From: Halomicroarcula saliterrae
GTDB lineage: Archaea > Halobacteriota > Halobacteria > Halobacteriales > Haloarculaceae
Direction of reading: 5' to 3'
DNA length: 64,000 bases
Assembly: GCF_031624395.1 (NCBI RefSeq)
Contig: NZ_JAMQON010000001.1
Coordinates: 868,001-932,000, forward strand
The position numbers and the translations under genes are program-made. The notes under the pieces were generated by a model. That model was not told the origin of the DNA and ran no database searches. It was given only the letters and a program-made list of their open reading frames with translations. This document shows, piece after piece, positions 860 through 23,003 of the stretch; position 1 is the first letter of the stretch, and the number at the start of each line of letters is the position of its first letter.

Positions 860-2425
860 ATGTCTCTCGATGCTGGTGACGCCTTAGTCGAGTCCCTCCA
901 CGAACACAACCCGTGGTGGGACGACAGGACCGACGCCTTCGACCTTCCTGCCCGGCAGAAAAGCGATTTCTACCATCTCGCACGCCCGGAAGCGTCCGGT
1001 AGCCAATTCGAAGATCAGTCTATCCTCGCACTTGTCGGTCGGCGCGGCGTCGGCAAAACTACGCTTCTCCACCAGTTCATCCACCACCGAATCGAGACTG
1101 GCGCTGCTCCTGAGCAATTTCTGTACCTTCCGTTTGACGCCGATCCACTCTACCAACTCCAGTCGGACGAGCAGCTCGCACGCGCCGTCCGATACTACGA
1201 AAGCCGCGTCTACGGTCGAACACCCAACGACGGGCCACAATTCGTTCTCATCGACGACATCCATCAGATCGAACACGCGAGCAAACCCACGATTGACGGA
1301 TGGGGCACACCCGTCGCCGAACTCATCGAGCAAACCTCGGACCGGCACGTGATTATGACGGCCAGCGCTGAGGTCCAGATCGAACGGGAACTCGCAGATA
1401 CCGAAATTTCTCCGGACGCGTACGACGTACAACCTATTCTTCCCGAGAAATTCCGAGACTACCTGTTCACTCTCTACCCCGACCTCGAAGCCGACGACAA
1501 TCGCGTCAGTCCGAGCTCTATCCGAGCAGGTGAGAACAGCCTCCCGGCAGCGATTGCCAAAGCGGATACAGCGAGCCTCACTGAGGAACTGCGACGCAAG
1601 TACGAGAAAGTCATCGACGCGGAACGCCGGATCCAGTCGCAAGTCGTCGAGTACCTGACGATGGGCGGTATCATCAGTTACGAACACGACGGAGCCGTCG
1701 AATCAGCAAGTGACCTCTCCTCGAAAGATTACGCTCGCCTCCGGGACAACGTCAGGACAGCCCTATATCAGGACGTTCCCGGCTTCGAATCAATTCAAAC
1801 AATTGCTGACCTCGAACGGCTGTGTGCGCTGGCCGCTCGGAACCGCGCCACCGAGTCCTTCCGCTACCAGGAACTCGTCGAACTGTTCGACGTCGACCGC
1901 CGCACAATCGCAGACAGTTACCTCCCCGCACTCAGCGAACTGTACGTCCTCACGGGCGTCACGGAATACGACAACAGTCGCCCGCGCGGCGTCCGACTCT
2001 ACCTCCGTGACACCGGCCTCGCAACGGCCCTATCGGACGGCGACGCATCAGCCGTCCGCAACGACTTCCAGCGAGAAGCAGAACTCGCCCGCGTCGCCGC
2101 CTTCGACCACACAATGCGATTCGCCTACGGCGTCAACGCAGCACAAGGCAACGACCCGACACCGAGTGTCCAATACTGGCGTGGCCGGGAAGGCGAGGTT
2201 GACTTCGTCTTCGAGGTCGGAGAGACGCCAGTCCCAATCGGGCTCGCATATCGCTCGCGTGACAGGGACGCGGCGCTTGCTGCTATCCAAGAGTTCCAAA
2301 ATGAATTCGACTCGCCACTCGGCTTCCTTCTCGCAGGCGATACTGTTCGCGGCTCGAAACCAGTACAGCAAATCGACGAGAGTGTTATTCAGCTACCGTA
2401 CTGGCTGTACCTTCTACTCTGCTAG
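860..2425 (+). CDS. AAA_14/DUF4143-like P-loop ATPase
   Basis: 521-residue protein. An N-terminal P-loop is seen at residues 60-67 (GRRGVGKT), with a Walker B acidic pair (LIDD) near 130-133. A winged-helix-like middle segment (around 340-390) follows. The C-terminal domain contains GEVDFVFEV near residue 440, the arrangement of the DUF4143 PD-(D/E)xK-like fold. Family knowledge: AAA_14-DUF4143 proteins are common in archaea and bacteria, often in mobile or defence regions, and their molecular role is poorly known. The ATG at 860 follows an AT-rich stretch and no ribosome site is obvious, so a leaderless transcript is likely. It stands alone, with 131 bases before the HicBA pair. Confidence 0.75.
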   Translation: MSLDAGDALVESLHEHNPWWDDRTDAFDLPARQKSDFYHLARPEASGSQFEDQSILALVGRRGVGKTTLLHQFIHHRIETGAAPEQFLYLPFDADPLYQLQSDEQLARAVRYYESRVYGRTPNDGPQFVLIDDIHQIEHASKPTIDGWGTPVAELIEQTSDRHVIMTASAEVQIERELADTEISPDAYDVQPILPEKFRDYLFTLYPDLEADDNRVSPSSIRAGENSLPAAIAKADTASLTEELRRKYEKVIDAERRIQSQVVEYLTMGGIISYEHDGAVESASDLSSKDYARLRDNVRTALYQDVPGFESIQTIADLERLCALAARNRATESFRYQELVELFDVDRRTIADSYLPALSELYVLTGVTEYDNSRPRGVRLYLRDTGLATALSDGDASAVRNDFQREAELARVAAFDHTMRFAYGVNAAQGNDPTPSVQYWRGREGEVDFVFEVGETPVPIGLAYRSRDRDAALAAIQEFQNEFDSPLGFLLAGDTVRGSKPVQQIDESVIQLPYWLYLLLC

Positions 2426-2556: not shown

Positions 2557-2805
2557 ATGAGTACCGGGATTGAACCGACCATCACGCTCACCGAGTCCGA
2601 CGAGTGGTGGATTGCCCGCGATATTGAAACCGGCGTAACGTCGCAGGGAAAAACGCGTCAAAGTGCCCTTGAAAACCTCGACGAAGCTATGGCTGGATAC
2701 CGAGGCGAGGGTAATGCTCCTAGCGACGAAGAATTACGCGAACTCGGCATTGATCCTTCGAACAATACGTCCGGGGCACGTGACGAATCGGATATTTTCG
2801 AGTAA
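2557..2805 (+). CDS. hicB: HicB-family antitoxin
   Basis: 82 residues. The N-terminal half (ITLTESDEWWIARDIETGV) has the HicB partial RNase-H-like fold, in which a substrate-like strand is followed by the T-x-G-x-T/S turn and an ALENLDEA helix. Family role: it neutralises the HicA mRNA interferase and usually autoregulates the operon. The stop is three bases before the HicA start, so the two are co-transcribed in antitoxin-first order. No separate C-terminal DNA-binding domain is obvious; the tail is short and acidic. Confidence 0.8.
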   Translation: MSTGIEPTITLTESDEWWIARDIETGVTSQGKTRQSALENLDEAMAGYRGEGNAPSDEELRELGIDPSNNTSGARDESDIFE

Positions 2806-2808
2806 CTC

Positions 2809-3063
2809 GTGGCTCGTGGGACGTTTTCTGGAATGGACGTCGTAAAGGTCATGGTGAATAGTGGTATCTACGAGTGGGTCAGAACGAACGGAGACCACGC
2901 TATCTTGCGATGGAATCCACCTGCCGCCCATGATTCCGACGCTCGAACAGTCCCCATCCCACTCCATGACGAACTGGACACCGGGACGCTACGGAGCATC
3001 GGTGAGCAGGCCGGGATGAAAGATTTTGACGAGTTCCGTGATTGGATCGACCGGAACTCTTGA
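2809..3063 (+). CDS. hicA: HicA-family mRNA interferase toxin
   Basis: 84 residues with a GTG start at 2809, chosen because it lies three bases after the HicB stop. An internal ATG at 2833 (SGMDVV) is the alternative. The dsRBD-like HicA fold is evident: the catalytic-type histidine sits in NGDHAIL, then VPIPLHDELDTGTLRSIGEQAG matches the family helix-turn that normally reads H-x-E-x-x-x-GTLR-x-I-x-x-QAG. Family role: translation-dependent mRNA cleavage, blocked by HicB. The gene ends four bases from the 3' end of the opposing nuclease-ATPase gene, so the two are convergent. Confidence 0.8.
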   Translation: MARGTFSGMDVVKVMVNSGIYEWVRTNGDHAILRWNPPAAHDSDARTVPIPLHDELDTGTLRSIGEQAGMKDFDEFRDWIDRNS

Positions 3064-3066
3064 GTA

Positions 3067-5340
3067 TCAGCCGAGCAGTCTGGAGAGAAAGCCACCGGAC
3101 TCGTCGTTCGAATCTGCGCTTTCTTCTGCGTCTTCCTCTTCTTTGTTGTTCATGCCAGTCTCGGCTGCACCGGTTAACAGTTCGTCGACGGTGTAGCCGG
3201 CCCATTCGGCGAACTCTTCAGGGGCACCGATATACACGCTGGACGCGGATTTTTCCGCCATGAACCGTTTCGGGAGGCGTTTCGCGTAGTCGTGTACTTC
3301 GTACCCGTCGCGGTCGAACTCAGCCGTGATTGCCCCTGGTTCAGGTTCGAAGGAAACGCGGCCACCCTGAATGTCTCGCTGCCAGTTGATTCGACCCGTA
3401 TCGTACGTCTTCTCGGCCGGCTCGTCCGCAGGGAAGTACTCGGGTTGCTTCCGGCCGGCTTCCTCGTAGAATTCTCGAACGATACGCCGGACGTCTTCGA
3501 TGGTACCAGTCCCGTCTTCCCACGGTTGTTCGGTAAGCATGCGTCGCGCGACGTAACTGAAGATCGGGTTCTGTCGTTCCAGCACTTCTGCGAGGTCGTC
3601 TTGCGCCTCACGAAACCCGGGGTCTTCAGGATTGGAAGGGAATGAAACGTCCATACTCAGGATTTTCATACGATTCCGGAACTCCGATTTCGGGAGTGCA
3701 TCGTTGGTCGTGAAAATGAGGCACGGCTGGTCAACGCTAGTTGGGGTCCAATCACTCCAGTAGTTCCGGATCGGGCTCCACCGCTGGATTTTCTCTTTTT
3801 CAGCGTCAATGATGGCGTACGGGAAGCTGGTGTCCCATTGACGGATTCCGCGAATCTCTTTCACGCCGACGTCGTCGGCATCCACGCCGGAAATCACCGT
3901 GTTGTCCGAGATGAGACGTAGAATGTACTCGGTGAGCTTGTCCTTCCCGGCGTCGCTTTTCCCTTCGATGTAGAGGTGCTGCAGGACGTTGTCAAGTGTT
4001 CTGGACGGTGAAGAAAGCGCTTCTGCATACTGGTTGGCGAACGGTGCCCAAAAGCCGTAGAGGAACGCTTCGTACATTTGGCCCATCACAGCAGTTTCCG
4101 ACTGCGTGTGCCCGTGGTTCTCGACAGTCTCGATGTAGTCCTCGATAGTTTCGAGACAGTGGTTGAGAACATCAGGTGTCGGGTCATCAGTAGCGACGAG
4201 AATCATCTCGTCGTCGTCACCGATGACGAGTTGCTCAGCGTCAGGCAGCACAGACATCGTCGGGATGGTGGTCGATTCCTTGACCTGGTTGTTGTACGCG
4301 CTCAGGGGCGCAGCGATGCTGTGGTCTTCGACGGTCGCACCGCGGTCGCGGAGACTCGTCCCGAATTCGTCGGCTGTGTCCCTGTCGACCTTGCTCGTCC
4401 CCATCCGTATCTGCTGGTCAGGTGCCCGGACACGTGGCCGATCGAGCGTCTCTGTCAGGTCCGTTTCGTGGTCCGATTCGACCAGTCCGACATCCGGCGA
4501 CTCGGTGTCTTCACTGTCCCGCTCAGAATCCTCGTCATCCGCGGAGTCTTCAGGCTCGACGACGGTTCGGTCAGCGTTCTCTGGTTCTTCGACGAACGCG
4601 ACCGTTTCATCAGCGCCCTCAGGATCGTCAACGACGGCAGTGACATGGTCAGCGACCGATTTGAGGTCCTCGACTGCGTCTTGATTCAATGCCGCTGTGT
4701 CGCTCACTTCGAGGTCACCCGCACCGACCCAATACTCGATGCGGTTGTCTCGTTCTTCTGGCGTGTCTGCGTCTTCGAGAGCCTCGACGAGCCCGTCGAG
4801 AAGCGTTTGGTCGCTGTATCCCTCTCTGTACTCGTCGATGAATTGCTTGAATTGCTCGTCGAGTTGTGTATCGACGTCGGTCGTGATGACCGAAATTTGG
4901 TTCGTGTGGTACTCCCACGAGTTCCGTGAGAGGTTCGCTGAACCGTGCACGAGTTTGACCGTGTCATCCGGCATGACGATACGGTAAATCTTCGAATGGA
5001 CGGTTTTCTGGTTCTTCAGTCGAACGGTGAGTCGCCCGTCCTGGCGAAGCTCCACGAGCGACCGTGCTGTCGATACCTCATTGACTCGGTCAGCATAGTC
5101 GTCCGCGTTGCCAATCAGAACATCGAGAGAATCGATATCGTACTCGGTGAGCATCGTCACCATCAGCTCGGGCGTCTCCGCGTATGTGACCGCGTCGACG
5201 TGGCGAGCCCCTTCGAACAAATCCAGAAAGTCCGCCCGTTCTTTCACCATCGCCAAACGAAACTTCGCAGCCCCTGAGCCGTAGAACTCCGGCATATCGG
5301 CGAACCGATCAAACGAGATGTTCGCCGTTAGTTCATCCAT
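3067..5340 (-). CDS. Phospholipase-D-type nuclease fused to a P-loop ATPase-like domain
   Basis: 757 residues. The N-terminal domain has a single HKD motif: H115-x-K117 (VHSKIYRI), followed by GSAN at 133-136. This is typical of homodimeric PLD endonucleases of the Nuc/BfiI type. A long acidic linker (about 235-300) follows. The C-terminal half carries a degenerate P-loop (GKSDAGKD, 460-467), an FPYAIIDAE strand and an asparagine sensor-like strand (LIFTTND, 541-547), resembling superfamily-3/AAA+ ATPases of viral primase-helicases. The last 40 residues are acidic and low-complexity. Inference: an ATP-controlled DNA or RNA cleaving protein, plausibly anti-virus. It is a single-gene unit with its own promoter, convergent with hicA. 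I do not know a named family with this exact fusion. Confidence 0.65.
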   Translation of the reverse strand: MDELTANISFDRFADMPEFYGSGAAKFRLAMVKERADFLDLFEGARHVDAVTYAETPELMVTMLTEYDIDSLDVLIGNADDYADRVNEVSTARSLVELRQDGRLTVRLKNQKTVHSKIYRIVMPDDTVKLVHGSANLSRNSWEYHTNQISVITTDVDTQLDEQFKQFIDEYREGYSDQTLLDGLVEALEDADTPEERDNRIEYWVGAGDLEVSDTAALNQDAVEDLKSVADHVTAVVDDPEGADETVAFVEEPENADRTVVEPEDSADDEDSERDSEDTESPDVGLVESDHETDLTETLDRPRVRAPDQQIRMGTSKVDRDTADEFGTSLRDRGATVEDHSIAAPLSAYNNQVKESTTIPTMSVLPDAEQLVIGDDDEMILVATDDPTPDVLNHCLETIEDYIETVENHGHTQSETAVMGQMYEAFLYGFWAPFANQYAEALSSPSRTLDNVLQHLYIEGKSDAGKDKLTEYILRLISDNTVISGVDADDVGVKEIRGIRQWDTSFPYAIIDAEKEKIQRWSPIRNYWSDWTPTSVDQPCLIFTTNDALPKSEFRNRMKILSMDVSFPSNPEDPGFREAQDDLAEVLERQNPIFSYVARRMLTEQPWEDGTGTIEDVRRIVREFYEEAGRKQPEYFPADEPAEKTYDTGRINWQRDIQGGRVSFEPEPGAITAEFDRDGYEVHDYAKRLPKRFMAEKSASSVYIGAPEEFAEWAGYTVDELLTGAAETGMNNKEEEDAEESADSNDESGGFLSRLLG

Positions 5341-5370: not shown

Positions 5371-5575
5371 ACTGACGAAGCGACTATGTTTCTTTGAGGA
5401 GAGAATCCCGTCGTTCAAGCCGAGGGTGCATCTGACACCCCCCACCAACCCCCGTTGAGAACAGCCCGGATATTTCACGCTAATCTAAACCATTTCTAAT
5501 TTGGTCGATGCTGTTGTCATGACACGGACGGCTAATTAAACAGTTATTCTATCGGGCACCCACTATCTCTTCACG

Positions 5576-11001: not shown

Positions 11002-11931
11002 ATGTCGGGTAGAGAAACTCATCAAAAGGCGGTTACCCGTGTCGGTCAGTGGCTCGATCTAACTGGAGAGCAGCGGAGGGAGTTCATTGACTTAGTGCAC
11101 CAGTCGTTCGGAGCGGAAGAAATGGACTTCTCGAATTACGACGAGCGGTACTTGAATTTCTTAGAGGAGAATATCTTCACTGACGATGAGATTATTGACT
11201 ATTTGCATCAGGCAGGGATAGAGCCAGAGACTGTTGAGTTATTCGAGACTCAAAACATCCCATTTGACGAGGTTTACAAGAGTTGGAACGAGATCCGGTA
11301 CTCAATTAACGAGATTCTGGATCTAACGATGCTCCTGAAATTGATTCACGAGTACTCTGAGCAATCCGAGGATAATCTCGTCAATAGCCGGTTTAAACTG
11401 CAAAAGCTGGTATATCTGGTGAATCGGGAGTTGGTCGAGCAGGATAGAATAGGCCAAGATACTAGGCCTGTAGATCATGGGAAACTGGAGGCGACTGGTT
11501 TCCGGTACACGTATCGGAAGAGAGAGTCTGGACCGTTTTCGAGAAATCTGCAAGAGGACAAGCATCGACTCTATGCATCAAACCTTGTTGACGAAGAGTT
11601 GGTAGAAGGTGATTCAACACCGGAAGTGAACGAGAATAGAGCTAGGTTTGAGATCTCTTTAGGAGGATCAGGTGAGGTATTGATGGACCGATTTGCAGGG
11701 ATCCTTCAGAATCTCAGCACTGACGTGTTGTCCGAGTGGGAAGCCGCAATTACAGCGGTGGTTAACAGGTGCGGTTCCATGTCGATTGAGGAACTTCAGG
11801 ACCATGTTGACAGCATCGACGATGTAAATGAAGCTGATGAACGCGGTGTGTTGATCAGAGGGCGTCAGGTGGAGTACGATTCGGAGCCGTGGCTGGAAGT
11901 TTCGGCAGAAGGAGGTGTGAGCTATGTCTGA
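11002..11931 (+). CDS. Panacea (SocA-like) domain protein, third gene of the SMC cassette
   Basis: 309 residues, starting two bases after the previous stop. The central part has the Panacea/DUF4065 hallmarks: FKLQKLVYLV (about residues 131-140), then aromatic FRYTYRKRESGPFS with the GP[FY]S turn (about 177-180). Known Panacea proteins act as antitoxins or as adaptors for proteolysis. The ~110-residue N-terminal helical extension and the C-terminal ~60 residues are unfamiliar. It overlaps the ATPase gene by eight bases. The domain call is from motifs only; alternatives are a degenerate relative or convergent similarity. Confidence 0.5.
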   Translation: MSGRETHQKAVTRVGQWLDLTGEQRREFIDLVHQSFGAEEMDFSNYDERYLNFLEENIFTDDEIIDYLHQAGIEPETVELFETQNIPFDEVYKSWNEIRYSINEILDLTMLLKLIHEYSEQSEDNLVNSRFKLQKLVYLVNRELVEQDRIGQDTRPVDHGKLEATGFRYTYRKRESGPFSRNLQEDKHRLYASNLVDEELVEGDSTPEVNENRARFEISLGGSGEVLMDRFAGILQNLSTDVLSEWEAAITAVVNRCGSMSIEELQDHVDSIDDVNEADERGVLIRGRQVEYDSEPWLEVSAEGGVSYV

Positions 11932-14023
11932 AGAAGAAATCAAGTCGAAGGTGCAAGAAGCGATTCAGGAGGATCAAGATATTGATGAGAAATATGAAGC
12001 GGAGTTCCTTGAGATCTTAGAAAACAGGTACTCACGTTTGACTTTCGATGAGTCCTCTGTCTCTCTTTCTCGGATGCATATCGAGGGCTACAGAGCAATC
12101 CAGAAACTCGATATATCGTTTACCGATCCGAACACGGTGGTTCACGGGAAGAATTCGAAAGGGAAGAGCAGCTTCATTGAAGCTACACGGTTCAACCTAT
12201 TCGGTCGAAAAGATGACGATCCGCTCGTGACAGACCCAATCCGAGAGGACTTTGAACGGTTGGGGACTAACGGTTATTGGTCGAAAGACGACACGGATTA
12301 CCGCGTCTATCGGGGTATGGAGGGAGGTCCTGGAGTAGGCTACAGCGGTCAGAACGAGCCGAATATTATCGAGAATCCGGATGAGAATAAGACTTCAAAG
12401 GTTCAAAGACATACTCAAGGCGATATCCGGGAGTTTATTGGGTACACTCCAATCTATCAGCAGGACTTCGATGACTTCGATGTTTTCTCGTTGTTCAGCG
12501 TCATCACAGGCGAGTTGAGGAAGTTCTACAGCTGTGACGATGCAACTGACTTAATCGATGTCCTGTTTGGAATCACTTTGACGAACGTTGAACGAGGGGT
12601 CGAGAATCAGATTGAGGAATGCAGACTTAGCGAAGAAGAGCAAGAGGCGAAAGCTCATCTACGAGGAAGAGAGCAGCGAGCTGTCAGTATCAGTAAGGAC
12701 ATCCGGAGTCTTATCGACGAACAAGAGGAAATAGAGTCAGAGATAGTGGAGAAAATAGAGGAAAAGGAGGAGCTTTCTCGCCTGCTGGAGAATAAGGAGG
12801 ATATCAGCGAAACCCTTACTGAGAAGATCGATATTCAGGACGAAATCTCTGACTTGCAGAACAGGAAGCAGGAGAAGGATGACGAGTTTGGGTCAATTAA
12901 ACAAGAGATTTCGAAGCTTGAGAGCGATGCTGTTACTGAGGAGATTGCTCCTGCGTTGGAAGAGATGAAGCAGATGGTTGCTTTGCCGAATCGATGTCCT
13001 GTCTGTACAAACGATATTGATCCAAGTGAGCACAGACAATTCCATGAGGAAGGAGATTGCCCTCTCTGCGGTAAGGACGTCGACGATGACCGTTATGAAT
13101 CGGTTTCTGAAGTGGATGAAGAGGGGGAGATCTTAGAGCAGGAGAAGCGTCAGGAAGAGCTGAACGAGTTGGAGGAAAAGAAACGGAGGGTTAGAGGGGA
13201 GATTGAGTTCTTGGCTGAGAGGATTGAGGAGAAGAAGGAACAGCTGGAAGAGTTGGAGGAGGAACAGTCGGAGTCGAAGTTCAGGGAGTACAAACAGAGG
13301 AAAAGCACGTTGGAGGAAAAGATTGGTAGCCTGAAAGAGCAGAGTCGGAAGCTTGAACTCCGGATTGAGACGAAACGTGAGATGCTTCACGACCTCGCCT
13401 TGGAGGTCCGTCGGTTAACGAGGTTGAACGAGCAGCGGGTTCACAAAGAGGAGCGTCGGGCAGCTTTGAAATCGTTCCAAGACTTACTAGTTGAGGAACG
13501 GATTGAGGCGAGGAGAGAATTGCAGACACGTCTGAAGCGGAGAATGGAGTCTTTGCTTGACGTGTTCTCACGGGGTACGTTCAAGGAAGCAGATTACGTG
13601 ACGTTCAGAGACAGGGATTCGTACCGCTATACTGTCCATGTCGCTAATGACAAGTCGAAACCGGAGCTATTGGAGCAAACCAACGCCGAGCTTACTCTCA
13701 GTATGTTACTGTTCCATACTTCGGTACTAGCTGAATTGCAGAGAGAAGAGACTATGCTTCCGTTGAAGCTGCTCATGATTGACTCTCCTTATGGGAACGG
13801 TCAGGACGGAGAGAACGCTGAGGACATTACAGACTTTCTTCTGGAGATACCGGAAGTGCTTGATGAGTATCAAATCATCATTTCTATGGCTGATTCTAGC
13901 GTCGCCGATCAAGTACGGTTGGAGCAAAAGTACGATATTGAATCAATCGACGACTATCTTGATGATGAGGTGTCTGGAAGGCAGATGACGCTCGGTGACA
14001 TTGACGACGAAACTGAACAATAG
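11924..14023 (+). CDS. Rad50/SMC-like ABC ATPase with zinc-binding coiled coil, fourth gene of the cassette
   Basis: 699 residues. Walker A GKNSKGKSS lies at 75-83 in the Rad50-type context MHIEGYRAIQKLDISF. A long Glu/Lys coiled coil (about 205-520) is interrupted near its tip by CPVC (358-361) and CPLC (379-382), a compact zinc ribbon rather than a single zinc-hook CxxC. Walker B LKLLMIDSP lies near 615-623. Such ATPases occur in DNA repair (Rad50, SbcC) and in defence modules (Lamassu, ABC-three-component systems). The eight-base overlap with the Panacea-like gene implies translational coupling. AT-rich, unlike the core genes. Confidence 0.8.
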   Translation: MSEEEIKSKVQEAIQEDQDIDEKYEAEFLEILENRYSRLTFDESSVSLSRMHIEGYRAIQKLDISFTDPNTVVHGKNSKGKSSFIEATRFNLFGRKDDDPLVTDPIREDFERLGTNGYWSKDDTDYRVYRGMEGGPGVGYSGQNEPNIIENPDENKTSKVQRHTQGDIREFIGYTPIYQQDFDDFDVFSLFSVITGELRKFYSCDDATDLIDVLFGITLTNVERGVENQIEECRLSEEEQEAKAHLRGREQRAVSISKDIRSLIDEQEEIESEIVEKIEEKEELSRLLENKEDISETLTEKIDIQDEISDLQNRKQEKDDEFGSIKQEISKLESDAVTEEIAPALEEMKQMVALPNRCPVCTNDIDPSEHRQFHEEGDCPLCGKDVDDDRYESVSEVDEEGEILEQEKRQEELNELEEKKRRVRGEIEFLAERIEEKKEQLEELEEEQSESKFREYKQRKSTLEEKIGSLKEQSRKLELRIETKREMLHDLALEVRRLTRLNEQRVHKEERRAALKSFQDLLVEERIEARRELQTRLKRRMESLLDVFSRGTFKEADYVTFRDRDSYRYTVHVANDKSKPELLEQTNAELTLSMLLFHTSVLAELQREETMLPLKLLMIDSPYGNGQDGENAEDITDFLLEIPEVLDEYQIIISMADSSVADQVRLEQKYDIESIDDYLDDEVSGRQMTLGDIDDETEQ

Positions 14024-14374: not shown

Positions 14375-14515
14375 TCCATTGGAGCGACCCGGCGGGACCG
14401 TCCCGCCATGATTCGCTCCGAATGCGCGAGAGACGATTTGAACGCCTGTTTCAGCCATGGCACAGCCGCGTGGTAGGCCAGACTCCACTACTCGCGCAAA
14501 AATCGGAAACTGCAG

Positions 14516-16045
14516 TCACGCTGGCTCGAAGTCATCGATCTTGCCGATGACCTGCATCGGTTCTTCGGCGTAGCCGATGAACTCCAGCACTTGCTCAGAC
14601 CACCCCGAGACGTTGTACACGTCCTCGTATCCTTCCGGTGTTGCGAGGTCGCCGTACGATGCGAGGTCGACCATGTACAGCGATGCTTCTGACGCCACCG
14701 CTGCACGGTACTCCTCAAAGGCCTCGCGGACAGTCCGGTCGCCGTCGACCAGTCGAGCCGTCGAGTCCCAAATCTGCATGTCGGTGAACAGGACGACTCG
14801 CTCGACAGCGATGTCTTCCTCCCGGAGGTAGTCGAGGACTTTCCAGCCGTTAGTCGAGTTCCCGACCTCGTCATCGATACCCATGACTGCTCTCTGTCGC
14901 TGCAGGACTGGCGTATCGATGTGGGTGGAAACAGTCTGGAACTCTGACCCGAACCCGCCGACGCGGGCACCCTGGTCGGCAAGCACCGCACCGAACAGTG
15001 CACCGATTTCCTTCCGTTGGAGTGTGCCCTGATCGGAGAGCGCCGCGGTCATGGACCCCGAGAGGTCCACCCCGACAAACGTGTTGCCGAGGTCATCAGG
15101 GACATGCTCGACGGCCACGTCGACGGCCTGTTCCAGCCACCGCTCGACCTCGGGCGCGTCAAGGCCAGCGTTCTGCAGCGCTTTGTACGCTTGGTAGTAC
15201 CGGAACGGGTACAGCGGCGCACGCTGCACCGCTTCCAGCTCCAGGTGCCCGACAATTGTCTCCTCGTCGACGCCGGCTTCGAGCATGTTCCGCAGGTTCC
15301 GAATCGAGGCGAAGATGGGCAGGGAGTACTCGTCGTCTTCGATGAGTGTCTCCCACGCCTCGGCCGTGTTCCCCTGCTCAGAGATGACCGTCTCCCACGT
15401 GTTCGGCGACGGCAGCGGCTCCACATCCGGATAGTCGTCGAGGTCACCGCGCATGAACCGCTCGAACAGGTCTTCCTGCTCCTCGTCAACCGGTGTCGGG
15501 TGGACGCGGTTGAACACGTCGTGCAGCGTCACCTCCCGCCGCGGGAGCGCGTACTTCTCCAGCGTGTACGCGTCAGCCATCTCGACGAGTGCGTCCTCGA
15601 TACCGCGACGCAGCGGCCACGGCGCAGTCCCACCGAACAGTTTGTCGTGGACCGCGAGCGCCGTCGCTGTCTCATCCATCCGCTGGACGATGGCCTGCGT
15701 CCACTCCCGAATGAGTGACTCGTCCGAGTCATCTTTGAACCGCGCGTCGTTCGCCGCCAGCACGAGCAGGACCTGCGGGATGTCCCGGAGGTGCATCTCC
15801 TGGCGCGCGTACGCGGCGAGTTTCAGGACGAACTCCGGGTCCTCGGCCGTCGCAGCGTCGAAACGCTCGACGACCGCCCGCAGGTGCTCCGTGTCGTCCT
15901 CGTAGTACGAATCTTCGAGCAGCTGGTTGATCGTTCGTTTGTACAGTGCGAGTCGTGGGTCCACAGGCCGGAACGCCTCACCGCCCTCGTGGTTGGTGGT
16001 GCGTGTCGCCTCTGCGACCGTCTGTTTCGTATCGTTCAGTTGCAT
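14516..16045 (-). CDS. TROVE-vWA protein, Ro60/Rsr orthologue (Y RNA-binding)
   Basis: 509 residues. The TROVE HEAT-like ring is seen from about 25 to 315: RLALYKRTINQLL, the REVTLHDVFNRVHP element (170-183), and LPIFASIRNLRNMLEAG (242-258) matching the conserved arginine-asparagine-leucine helix of Ro60. The C-terminal von Willebrand A domain starts near 322 with the metal site DLSGS (327-331). Ro proteins bind Y RNAs on the outer face of the ring and misfolded RNA 3' ends in the cavity; bacterial Rsr works with RNA-degrading and repair enzymes. Here four candidate Y RNAs and a tRNA lie immediately upstream on the same strand, which strongly supports the assignment. Length matches Ro60 orthologues (about 500-540). 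Confidence 0.92.
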   Translation of the reverse strand: MQLNDTKQTVAEATRTTNHEGGEAFRPVDPRLALYKRTINQLLEDSYYEDDTEHLRAVVERFDAATAEDPEFVLKLAAYARQEMHLRDIPQVLLVLAANDARFKDDSDESLIREWTQAIVQRMDETATALAVHDKLFGGTAPWPLRRGIEDALVEMADAYTLEKYALPRREVTLHDVFNRVHPTPVDEEQEDLFERFMRGDLDDYPDVEPLPSPNTWETVISEQGNTAEAWETLIEDDEYSLPIFASIRNLRNMLEAGVDEETIVGHLELEAVQRAPLYPFRYYQAYKALQNAGLDAPEVERWLEQAVDVAVEHVPDDLGNTFVGVDLSGSMTAALSDQGTLQRKEIGALFGAVLADQGARVGGFGSEFQTVSTHIDTPVLQRQRAVMGIDDEVGNSTNGWKVLDYLREEDIAVERVVLFTDMQIWDSTARLVDGDRTVREAFEEYRAAVASEASLYMVDLASYGDLATPEGYEDVYNVSGWSEQVLEFIGYAEEPMQVIGKIDDFEPA

Positions 16046-16102
16046 GCTATCACTGGCGTCGCAACAGTCGACGCCGCAAACCGCTCACCGCGAGCGGGGA
16101 AC

Positions 16103-16176
16103 GTCCCTGACAAGATTCGAACCTGTGACACCCGGCTTCGAAAGCCGGTGCTCGTTCCGAACCGAGCTACAGGGAC
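16103..16176 (-). tRNA. tRNA-Arg (anticodon TCG)
   Basis: 74 nt. Acceptor GTCCCTG/CAGGGAC, anticodon stem CCGGC/GCCGG with loop TTTCGAA, T arm ACAGG-TTCGAAT-CTTGT with one wobble. It lies 57 bases before the TROVE start and four bases after the first Y-like RNA, so RNase P and Z processing would release both. Confidence 0.85.
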
Positions 16177-16180
16177 AAGC

Positions 16181-20624: not shown

Positions 20625-20706
20625 GGCTCGAAACGAATGGCCACCCTGCGGTTAGGGTAGCCCTTTCGAGCCGAGGACCAGGGTCAAATCCCTGACCGAG
20701 CATTTT
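20625..20706 (+). ncRNA. Candidate structured RNA with T-rich end
   Basis: A 9-bp stem GGCTCGAAA/TTTCGAGCC encloses ACCCT-GCGGTT-AGGGT. A second hairpin CAGGG-TCAAATC-CCTG follows, and the element ends in TTTT. The second hairpin resembles a tRNA T arm that is one base short, so a degenerate tRNA 3' half or integration-site scar is an alternative to a guide RNA. It is the last accessory feature before core genes resume. Confidence 0.45.
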
Positions 20707-20819
20707 GCTGCGACCAATACGTGAGCAGCGACCGGTATTCTTTCGCCGACCGCTCGCGGAAATATGGGAATCGCTGCCACAGCGGTAGCTATTTTCGGGG
20801 GCCGTGAGTCCGACGACAT

Positions 20820-22001
20820 ATGCAAGCAGTCGTACTCGCTGCCGGTGAAGGCACACGGATGCGCCCACTGACCGAGAACACGCCGAAACCGATGCTCCCC
20901 GTGGCTGACCGCCCGCTGGTCGCTCACACCGCGGACACGGCCATCGAGGCGGGGGCCGAGGAACTCATCTTCGTCGTCGGCTACGAAGCCGACGCCGTCC
21001 GGAAGTACTTCGGCGAGCGCTACCGCGGCGTCCCGGTGGAGTTCGCCGTACAGGAGGAACAGCTCGGGACGGCCGACGCCGTCAACGCCGCCAGCGAGTA
21101 CCTCGACGGGCCCTTCGCCGTGTTGAACGGCGACAATCTCTACGACGAGGCGAGCCTCGCGGCGCTGTTCGACGCCGCGCCCGCTATCGCGGCCTACCGG
21201 GTGCCCGACCCGTCGAACTACGGGGTCCTCTCGACTGACGGCGACCGGGTCACCGCTATCGTCGAGAAGCCCGAGGAGCCGCCGACCGAACTCGCGAACG
21301 CCGGCGCGTACGTCTTCCCCGCGGAGGCCCGCGAGTGGCTCGACGTGGAGCTGAGCGAGCGGGGCGAACGGGAAATAACCGACGTTCTCACCCGGGTCAT
21401 CGAGGAGCACTCGGTGACGGCCGTCGAGGTGGACCGCTGGCTCGACGTGGGACGGCCCTGGGAGCTACTGGCGGCCAACGAGTGGAAACTCGCCGAGGTC
21501 GACCGCCGTATCGACGGCGAGGTCCGGGGCGACGCGGACCTGCGGGGCGACGTGGTGGTCGAGGAGGGAGCGGTCGTCGAACCCGGCGTCGTCATCGAGG
21601 GGCCGGCGCTGGTCCGCGCCGGGGCGACCGTCGGTCCGAACGCCTACGTCCGGGGCGCGACGATGCTCGGCGAGGACACCCACGTCGGCCACGGCGTCGA
21701 GGTGAAAAACAGCGTCGTGATGGCCGACTCGAACGTGCCACACGTCTCCTACGTCGGCGACAGCGTGCTGGGAACCGACGTGAACCTGGGCGCGAGCACG
21801 CAGGTGGCGAACCTGCGCCACGACGGCGAACCGGTGACGATAACGGTCAAAGGCGACCGCGTCTCGACGGGCCGCCGGAAGTTCGGGGTCGTCGCGGGCG
21901 ACGGCGTCCGGACGGCTATCAACACCAGTCTCAACGCCGGCGTAGTGCTCTCGGCGGGCGCGACCACGACACCCGGTGAGACGGTCATACGGGACAGGTA
22001 G
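20820..22001 (+). CDS. glmU: Bifunctional sugar-1-phosphate nucleotidylyltransferase / acetyltransferase (GlmU-like)
   Basis: 393 residues. The N-terminal nucleotidyltransferase domain opens with LAAGEGTRMRPLTENTPKPM, which carries the G-x-G-T-R-M and PKP nucleotide and sugar-phosphate motifs; LNGDNLYD provides the metal aspartate. From about 235 the C-terminal left-handed beta-helix shows hexapeptide repeats (VVEEGAVVEPGVVIEG) and a typical acetyltransferase end. Archaeal enzymes of this type make UDP-GlcNAc or dTDP-sugars from glucosamine- or glucose-1-phosphate for glycoproteins. The start codon follows a TATA-like CTATTTTC by about 30 bases, fitting a leaderless transcript. Confidence 0.85.
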   Translation: MQAVVLAAGEGTRMRPLTENTPKPMLPVADRPLVAHTADTAIEAGAEELIFVVGYEADAVRKYFGERYRGVPVEFAVQEEQLGTADAVNAASEYLDGPFAVLNGDNLYDEASLAALFDAAPAIAAYRVPDPSNYGVLSTDGDRVTAIVEKPEEPPTELANAGAYVFPAEAREWLDVELSERGEREITDVLTRVIEEHSVTAVEVDRWLDVGRPWELLAANEWKLAEVDRRIDGEVRGDADLRGDVVVEEGAVVEPGVVIEGPALVRAGATVGPNAYVRGATMLGEDTHVGHGVEVKNSVVMADSNVPHVSYVGDSVLGTDVNLGASTQVANLRHDGEPVTITVKGDRVSTGRRKFGVVAGDGVRTAINTSLNAGVVLSAGATTTPGETVIRDR

Positions 22002-22137
22002 CGAGGGCCCGAACGGCGTCGGGAACCTCGGTACTGCCGAACGGGGACAGACGCGAGCGCCGAAGAAGTCGCGAGGTTGACGGGTTCTCGGGACGAGTAT
22101 GTGAGATTAAGTATGGTGACGACGACGCTCCGGTAAG

Positions 22138-22323
22138 ATGGTCGACCCAACATCGGATCACCACGAGGATATCGACGAGGCGGACGCCCCGAACTGCGCT
22201 GTATGTGACGCCGCAATCGCTAACGAGGTGACACACCGCGTCATCACGTGGGTCGAGGACAACAGCGTCCAGACGGCGCATTTCTGCGACGACGACTGTC
22301 GGGCGGAGTGGGACGGCGAGTAA
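22138..22323 (+). CDS. Small zinc-binding protein (DUF7576-like)
   Basis: 61 residues. Two cysteine pairs, CAVC near 20 and CDDDC near 50, make a treble-clef or TRASH-like zinc site; the C-terminus is acidic. Such proteins of about 60 residues are common in haloarchaea and of unknown role; nucleic acid or protein contact is likely. Monocistronic. Confidence 0.7.
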   Translation: MVDPTSDHHEDIDEADAPNCAVCDAAIANEVTHRVITWVEDNSVQTAHFCDDDCRAEWDGE

Positions 22324-22351
22324 CGCTCTTTCTCTACTCTCTCGATGGGTT

Positions 22352-22864
22352 TCACTCCACCTCGTCGTAGGTCTGCTCTATCGACTGCTGACCGCCGATG
22401 CGGTCCGACACAGTTCTCGTAAGCAGGTCGAACACAGTGACCACCGGGTACAGGAGGAGTTCGACGTACCGGAGTGGCCTGACGACGGTGAGCGCGAACG
22501 ACTGAGCGTGTCCCAGCCCGTAGGATTTCGGTAGTATCTCGCCGGCGACGAGGATGACGGTGCTGGCGACGACCGTCGTGGCGACTACGGCCAGCCCGGG
22601 TTCGAGTCGGTCGACGAGCAGGGCGGTCAACAGGCTCGACAGCGTGATGTTGACGACGTTGTTCCCCACGAGCAGCGTGACCAGCAGTCGGTGTGGGTCT
22701 TCGAGCACGTCCGCCACGGCCGCTGCCCGTGCGTCCGTCGGGGCCGCCTGGGCGACCCACTCCCGCGAGAGCGAGAACAGGGCCGTCTCGCTGCTGGAGA
22801 AGAAGGCGCTGCAAGCGAGTAGGAGGACGATAGCGACGAGCGTGGGCGCGAGCGGGACAGCCAT
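22352..22864 (-). CDS. DUF21-domain membrane protein (CNNM/CorC-like transporter core)
   Basis: 170 residues. Three to four hydrophobic helices and the DUF21 signature SSSETALFSLSR near 23-34, plus GEILPKSYG near 108-116. The family are Mg2+/Co2+ transport or efflux proteins normally followed by CBS and CorC_HlyC domains. This one ends after the membrane domain, so it is a short form. A tRNA-Glu lies upstream on the same strand. Confidence 0.8.
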   Translation of the reverse strand: MAVPLAPTLVAIVLLLACSAFFSSSETALFSLSREWVAQAAPTDARAAAVADVLEDPHRLLVTLLVGNNVVNITLSSLLTALLVDRLEPGLAVVATTVVASTVILVAGEILPKSYGLGHAQSFALTVVRPLRYVELLLYPVVTVFDLLTRTVSDRIGGQQSIEQTYDEVE

Positions 22865-22929
22865 ACCGTTCGGTCGTCCCCGTCCCTCAAAGAACCGCCG
22901 CCATCGCTCGGCACGTCGAACAGAGGAAT

Positions 22930-23003
22930 GCTCCGGCAGGGATTTGAACCCTGGTCATCACCGTGAGAGGGTGATATGATTGGCCGGACTACACCACCGG
23001 AGC
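22930..23003 (-). tRNA. tRNA-Glu (anticodon CTC), native copy
   Basis: 74 nt. Acceptor GCTCCGG/CCGGAGC, D arm with TCCGGCC, anticodon stem TCACC/GGTGA with loop CTCTCAC, T arm CAGGG-TTCAAAT-CCCTG. It has the standard haloarchaeal tRNA-Glu layout, unlike the array copy at 18265. Confidence 0.95.

Follow-up and report, generated by a model that had tools for sequence, protein, structure and literature searches.

The window analyzed in this work is a 64,000-nucleotide stretch (G000:C1:868001–932000) of a chromosomal contig of a haloarchaeon. A gene on its minus strand codes for a 757-residue protein in which a predicted nuclease domain of the PLD superfamily is followed by an AAA+ ATPase domain; the initial annotation had correctly delimited this open reading frame at 3067–5340 and was silent on its strand. 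The features of the gene, and the neighboring gene discussed below as a possible partner, are as follows:

3067–5340, minus strand: AgaP-family PLD nuclease/AAA+ (SF3-Cch-like) fusion protein, 757 aa
4786–5274, minus strand: N-terminal PLD nuclease domain, aa 23–185 (Pfam and fold matches)
4990–4998, minus strand: HxK catalytic motif H115-S116-K117 (H115 and K117 invariant in 66/66 homologs)
4933–4944, minus strand: GSxN catalytic motif G133-S134-A135-N136 (G133, S134 and N136 invariant in 66/66 homologs)
4420–4641, minus strand: acidic, probably disordered linker, aa 234–307 (pLDDT <50 over most of it)
3406–4188, minus strand: AAA+ ATPase domain of the SF3/Cch/MCM type, about aa 385–645 (AF2 model and fold matches)
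3940–3963, minus strand: Walker A-like loop G460-KSDA-G465-K466-D467, with Asp replacing Ser/Thr
3805–3819, minus strand: Walker B-like strand (D512 invariant in 66/66 homologs)
3700–3720, minus strand: sensor 1/SF3 motif C-like segment (N546 invariant in 66/66 homologs)
3664–3678, minus strand: candidate arginine-finger/sensor cluster R555, R557, K559 (in 65/66 homologs)
860–2425, plus strand: AAA_14-DUF4143 ATPase, possible partner, convergent with the PLD gene

Purifying selection on the gene is strong, with a dN/dS of 0.045 overall in comparison with a Haloquadratum homolog (L068, 91% identical) and of 0.013 for the ATPase part alone. Since many genomes also yielded homologs that agree with it in length and frame, it is a genuine gene rather than a chance open reading frame; further, the ATPase half being its most constrained part argues against decay. 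Just upstream of the gene, a 54 bp segment (5384–5437) matches, in inverted orientation, a segment about 3.5 kb from the Haloquadratum homolog (L068:15800–15853).

Searches with the N-terminal half recovered the Pfam domains RE_NgoFVII (E=2.7e-5, over the cut-off) and PLDc_2 (E=3.1e-5, just under the cut-off) across residues 55–166, and fold searches retrieved SauUSI (7clg, Z 13.0), Nuc (1byr, Z 12.1) and NgoAVII (4rct, Z 11.7), as well as NucT. The active site reads HSK(115–117)-x15-GSAN(133–136). The single HKD motif previously assigned to this protein was thus correctly placed at H115, but is not an HKD in the strict sense of HxK(x)4D, as V122 occupies the position of the D. Both the fold and the HxK...GSxN active site that typify the PLD superfamily are present. 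No full-length match to the family was found in PADLOC, NCBIfam or PHROGs, and where PADLOC does match relatives of the protein (ZacB, PLD_Helicase, PbeA), the match is confined to the PLD part.

The C-terminal half had no Pfam match. AlphaFold2 models of the full-length protein (43-sequence alignment, pLDDT 73.7) and of residues 385–725 (36 sequences, pLDDT 91.0, pTM 0.88) both display an AAA+ fold in this half; they bear out the SF3-like ATPase that had been proposed as fused to the PLD nuclease, and the P-loop fold, whose absence from a predicted structure had been named as counter-evidence, is there. The best fold match is the SCCmec helicase Cch (5dgk, Z 12.7 over 236 residues, rmsd 6.3), followed by the SaPI Rep helicase (8tch, Z 12.2) and, lower, by MCM (Z about 10), the SaPI5 primase-helicase (9.4), papillomavirus E1 (8.6), BrxL (8.2) and poxvirus D5 (8.0); an independent Foldseek search placed Cch first and the SV40 T antigen third. 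Within the Walker A-like loop, G460, G465 and K466 are invariant in 66/66 homologs, the lysine being K466 and not, as first numbered, K465. The loop departs from the GxxxxGK[ST] consensus in having D467 in place of Ser/Thr, and the residue after the lysine among the 66 homologs is Asp in 35, Gly in 29 and Ser in 2, both of the last being bacterial (Mitsuokella and a Clostridia MAG). The R555/R557/K559 cluster follows the sensor-1 N546, as in SF3-type proteins. Judging from these motifs, NTP binding by the AAA+ half is plausible, and ATP hydrolysis is uncertain for want of a conserved Ser/Thr in Walker A; among published fusions of SF3 domains with HerA/FtsK proteins, the SF3 domain is frequently inactive (PMC10853773).

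The characterized relative of this protein is AgaP, the PLD protein that shares a transcript with the long-A Argonaute in haloarchaeal APAP systems (Cheng et al., 2024, PMC11442185). When expressed alone in a heterologous host, AgaP is toxic via its catalytic residues, with mutations of H105, K107, G157, S158 or N160 abolishing the toxicity; together with its Argonaute, it restricts a plasmid in a manner requiring the catalysis of AgaP but not that of the Argonaute, and strengthens immunity to an ssDNA virus (PMC11442185). For alignment we translated the Natrinema pellirubrum AgaP from the plasmid pNATPE02 (L141:5953–8103; NC_019963.1 121345–123495), where the full-length gene is missing from the plasmid gene table, which lists three short hypothetical proteins in its place. 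In BLASTP, the window protein aligns with it along 725 columns that take in both domains, at 29% identity and an E-value of 1e-90, and the H105, K107, G157, S158 and N160 of AgaP align with H115, K117, G133, S134 and N136. By this full-length homology and these matching catalytic residues, the window protein is, on sequence grounds, a member of the AgaP family, and shares with AgaP the C-terminal AAA+ domain as well. It differs in the spacing between HxK and GSxN, which is 15 residues as against 49 in AgaP, whose motif was published as a split HxK(x)49GSxN with the spacing held to be distinctive (PMC11442185); in the N. pellirubrum protein the split corresponds to an acidic loop insert of ~34 residues that is absent from the window protein and its clade. 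Further differences are the Asp after the Walker A lysine, in place of the Gly of AgaP, and, unlike in the APAP systems, the lack of an adjacent long-A pAgo, or indeed of any pAgo, in the window's genome. As the main text of Cheng et al. (2024, PMC11442185) deals with the PLD half only and mentions no ATPase or Walker motifs, the AAA+ half of AgaP appears to be undescribed there.

In a census of 391 haloarchaeal genomes, the AgaP family was found, patchily, in 91; the searches also yielded 22 haloarchaeal plasmids with family members and 69 named loci. Relatives with the same architecture occur in bacteria (Mitsuokella, a Clostridia MAG and plasmids of Arcobacter, Acetobacter and Komagataeibacter), as single genes with no adjacent Argonaute. 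Of the 53 NgAgo-like genes in the 391 genomes, 27 are accompanied at a distance of no more than 3 kb by an AgaP-family gene, in every case on the same strand; commonly the Argonaute is upstream and the gap is 64 bp. The two genes co-occur per genome far more often than by chance (Fisher p 2.5e-17, phylogeny ignored). The aligned NgAgo-like Argonautes retain the DEDD tetrad, its positions being read from the alignment by comparison with NgAgo. The majority of family members, including the window's clade, nevertheless lack an adjacent Argonaute: in a quick tree, this clade of 30 has one such neighbor. No Piwi domain was detected in the window's genome, and no pAgo in 26 of 36 genomes examined, a set made up mostly of carriers of clade-I genes. 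The pAgo label changes at least five times on the quick tree, which has long branches, SH-aLRT support only and no readable direction of gain or loss; a single origin of the linkage was rejected on this count. Several other Argonaute-related arrangements were encountered: a long conserved cassette (L119–L132; e.g., L120:5287–18514) comprising an AAA_14 ATPase, an NgAgo-like Argonaute, the PLD-AAA+ protein and UvrD-like, PD-(D/E)XK and UvrD/PD-(D/E)XK proteins; separate proteins of 340–400 aa corresponding to the N-terminal domain of NgAgo-like Argonautes (L105:8547–9671 and several genomes), some of them adjoining Argonaute-free PLD-AAA+ genes (G227:C4); and a different group of Argonautes 8–30 kb from AgaP-family genes with no adjacent Argonaute (G147, G199, G223, G268, G326, G439, G189, G248).

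A second recurrent association is with genes for HerA, NurA, a metallophosphoesterase (Mre11-like) and Rad50/SMC, which adjoin 11 of 31 clade loci. The 391 genomes contain 40 NurA genes belonging to this subfamily, and 18 of them have an AgaP-family gene no more than 12 kb away, as against 0.19 expected by random placement, a contrast inflated by shared defense-island location and relatedness. An N6-methylase gene stands beside 10 of the 31 clade loci, and the pAgo, HerA-NurA and N6-methylase neighbors together constitute a defense-type context for the family. The HerA link could also be read differently, namely that the protein is a repurposed former partner of pAgo, with its AAA+ domain as a mere DNA-binding element or scaffold and its PLD domain acting in general DNA repair or end processing alongside HerA-NurA-Mre11-Rad50-type machines. 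The non-canonical Walker A would suit such a role, as would the strength of the association, which in L089–L091 extends to a PLD gene directly after HerA on the same strand with a gap of 40–115 bp. We hold it to be unlikely, however, as the patchy distribution (91/391 genomes) and single-gene transfer are unlike those of a repair gene, the AAA+ domain as the most conserved part is not decaying, and neither the HerA-NurA cassette nor its NurA subfamily was found in the window's own genome. Elsewhere in the window, a Rad50/LmuB-like SMC protein (PADLOC LmuB 3e-32) is encoded together with a 309-aa protein lacking any Pfam match (11002–14023); by their sequences, the two may form a Lamassu-like or similar defense pair.

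The immediate neighborhood offers one candidate partner. In the locus of the closest relative (G015/L038; PLD protein 97% identical), the AAA_14 gene is 43 bp from the PLD gene and convergent with it; AAA_14 homologs are found in most pAgo-PLD loci, distant ones adjoin pAgo-PLD operons, and in L106/L108/L109 AAA_14 is again convergent beside PLD. As AgaP requires a restraining partner (PMC11442185), the PLD-AAA+ protein might be the effector of a multi-protein system in which a nearby partner, most likely the AAA_14-DUF4143 ATPase at 860–2425, keeps the nuclease in check or loads it, the part played by pAgo in APAP. Against this stand the convergent orientation, hence no operon, the lack of AAA_14 from most clade-I loci, and the position of the close homologs of the window AAA_14, mostly distant from any PLD-family gene; we regard such a system as improbable, and AAA_14 as an obligatory partner is unsupported across the clade. 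The toxin-antitoxin neighbor pointed out in the initial annotation, a HicA/DUF7387 (HicAB) pair at 2557–3063, does exist but is incidental, being absent from the syntenic G015 locus with its 97%-identical relative, and was dropped as a part of the system. Genes for VWA-domain and HEAT-repeat proteins recur a few kb from PLD-AAA+ genes in the window's genome and two others (L031, L038, L067).

DNA shared among clade members typically ends near the start of the gene and ~100–150 bp from its stop. Because the shared DNA stops near the gene's own ends, the PLD-AAA+ gene seems, from these comparisons, to move as a single gene. The possibility that it is a virus gene only, which had been named at the outset as speaking against a defense role, was checked with a single protein and a 43-row alignment: there were no matches in phages or viral contigs, nor in phages when the bacterial member was used as well, and a virus origin was discarded. 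Could the protein instead serve the replication or maintenance of a mobile element, be it plasmid, virus or integrative element, with the AAA+ domain as a replication helicase? Its top folds are indeed those of Cch of SCCmec and the SaPI Rep helicases, the viral-model fold matches include phage D5/VirE-type proteins, and many homologs are plasmid-borne. Yet the absence of homologs from phage records and viral contigs, the lack of a primase or an origin-type operon around the gene, the confinement of shared DNA to the gene's ends, the ordinary host genes from ~23 kb, and the AgaP phenotypes, which are of restriction rather than replication, render this very unlikely. A provirus context, suggested by the adjacent tRNA cluster, was likewise set aside in view of the host genes that follow from ~23 kb onward. 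The tRNA genes of that cluster (14422–23003), 22 in number, all lie on the minus strand, next to a TROVE/Ro60-like gene (14516–16045) and one for an RlaP-type RNA-repair nucleotidyltransferase (16767–17588); the region resembles an array of tRNA genes accompanied by an RNA-repair module, rather than a provirus.

Three known systems have comparable architectures. SauUSI, an ATP-dependent PLD restriction enzyme (PMC7913695) and a barrier to foreign DNA, likewise combines an N-terminal PLD nuclease (fold Z 13.0) with a motor ATPase; however, its motor is SF2 helicase-like and it has a target-recognition domain for modified DNA, whereas the window protein has an SF3/Cch-type AAA+ motor and no modified-base reader found with Pfam. 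The BrxL-HKD variants of type 1 BREX (PMC12839542) also join an AAA+ motor (BrxL fold Z 8.2) and an HKD nuclease in one protein, but with the HKD domain C-terminal instead of N-terminal and with sequences not recognizably related; no BREX genes were recognized in a scan of proteins encoded within the window's first 14 kb. Cch and SaPI Rep (5dgk, 8tch; Cch2 in PMC7581432) provide the closest solved folds to the C-terminal half, but are mobile-element replication helicases that lack a PLD nuclease and have a sequence identity of about 10%.

We hence favor, at a probability of roughly 0.6, the reading that the gene encodes an AgaP-family defense nuclease working without an Argonaute, most likely as a stand-alone or differently partnered anti-plasmid/antiviral nuclease. 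Since no Argonaute is attached here or in most relatives, the protein probably acts alone or with another partner. As the window locus has neither a pAgo nor a HerA-NurA cassette, we infer the defense role of the gene from its relatives. The stand-alone antiviral or plasmid-restriction protein of the initial annotation thereby gains indirect support, from the plasmid restriction and enhanced ssDNA-virus immunity of the AgaP homolog (29%) and from the Argonaute-free genome of the window. Two PLD domains would pair into an active site, as in single-HKD nucleases such as SauUSI, where PLD dimerization serves double-strand cutting (PMC7913695). The AAA+ domain would assemble as a ring on single-stranded DNA or replication forks of plasmids or viruses entering the cell, and its binding of NTP, through a Walker A motif that is non-canonical, would decide when the nuclease cuts, in keeping with the NTP gating suggested in the initial annotation. 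In the pAgo-linked relatives, the Argonaute would provide targeting and restraint; in the orphan clade, these may come from the AAA+ domain itself or from another host partner. The biochemistry of the orphans may differ, because AgaP is toxic alone in a heterologous host and yet the orphans persist. As counterpoints, the Asp/Gly of Walker A argues against ordinary Mg-ATP hydrolysis, and the predicted Cch/SaPI-type fold is also that of mobile-element replication helicases.

More broadly, at odds a little short of even, the PLD-SF3/Cch family would be an anti-plasmid/antiviral nuclease that is widespread in archaea and bacteria and encoded by a single gene, with an atypical AAA+ ring gating the nuclease. 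On several occasions, haloarchaeal Argonautes and HerA-NurA-Mre11-Rad50 cassettes would have co-opted this ready-made effector, and the published AgaP would be only its Argonaute-bound branch. While AgaP itself is already known, the conserved AAA+ motor domain, the mainly Argonaute-free distribution and the second partner cassette appear to be new. Given that AgaP kills cells in the absence of Argonaute, the orphans raise the question of how such a nuclease is restrained and targeted to foreign DNA. They also bear on the use of PLD partners by active NgAgo-type Argonautes, and on whether the AAA+ domain provides the DNA-opening activity that Argonautes are missing.
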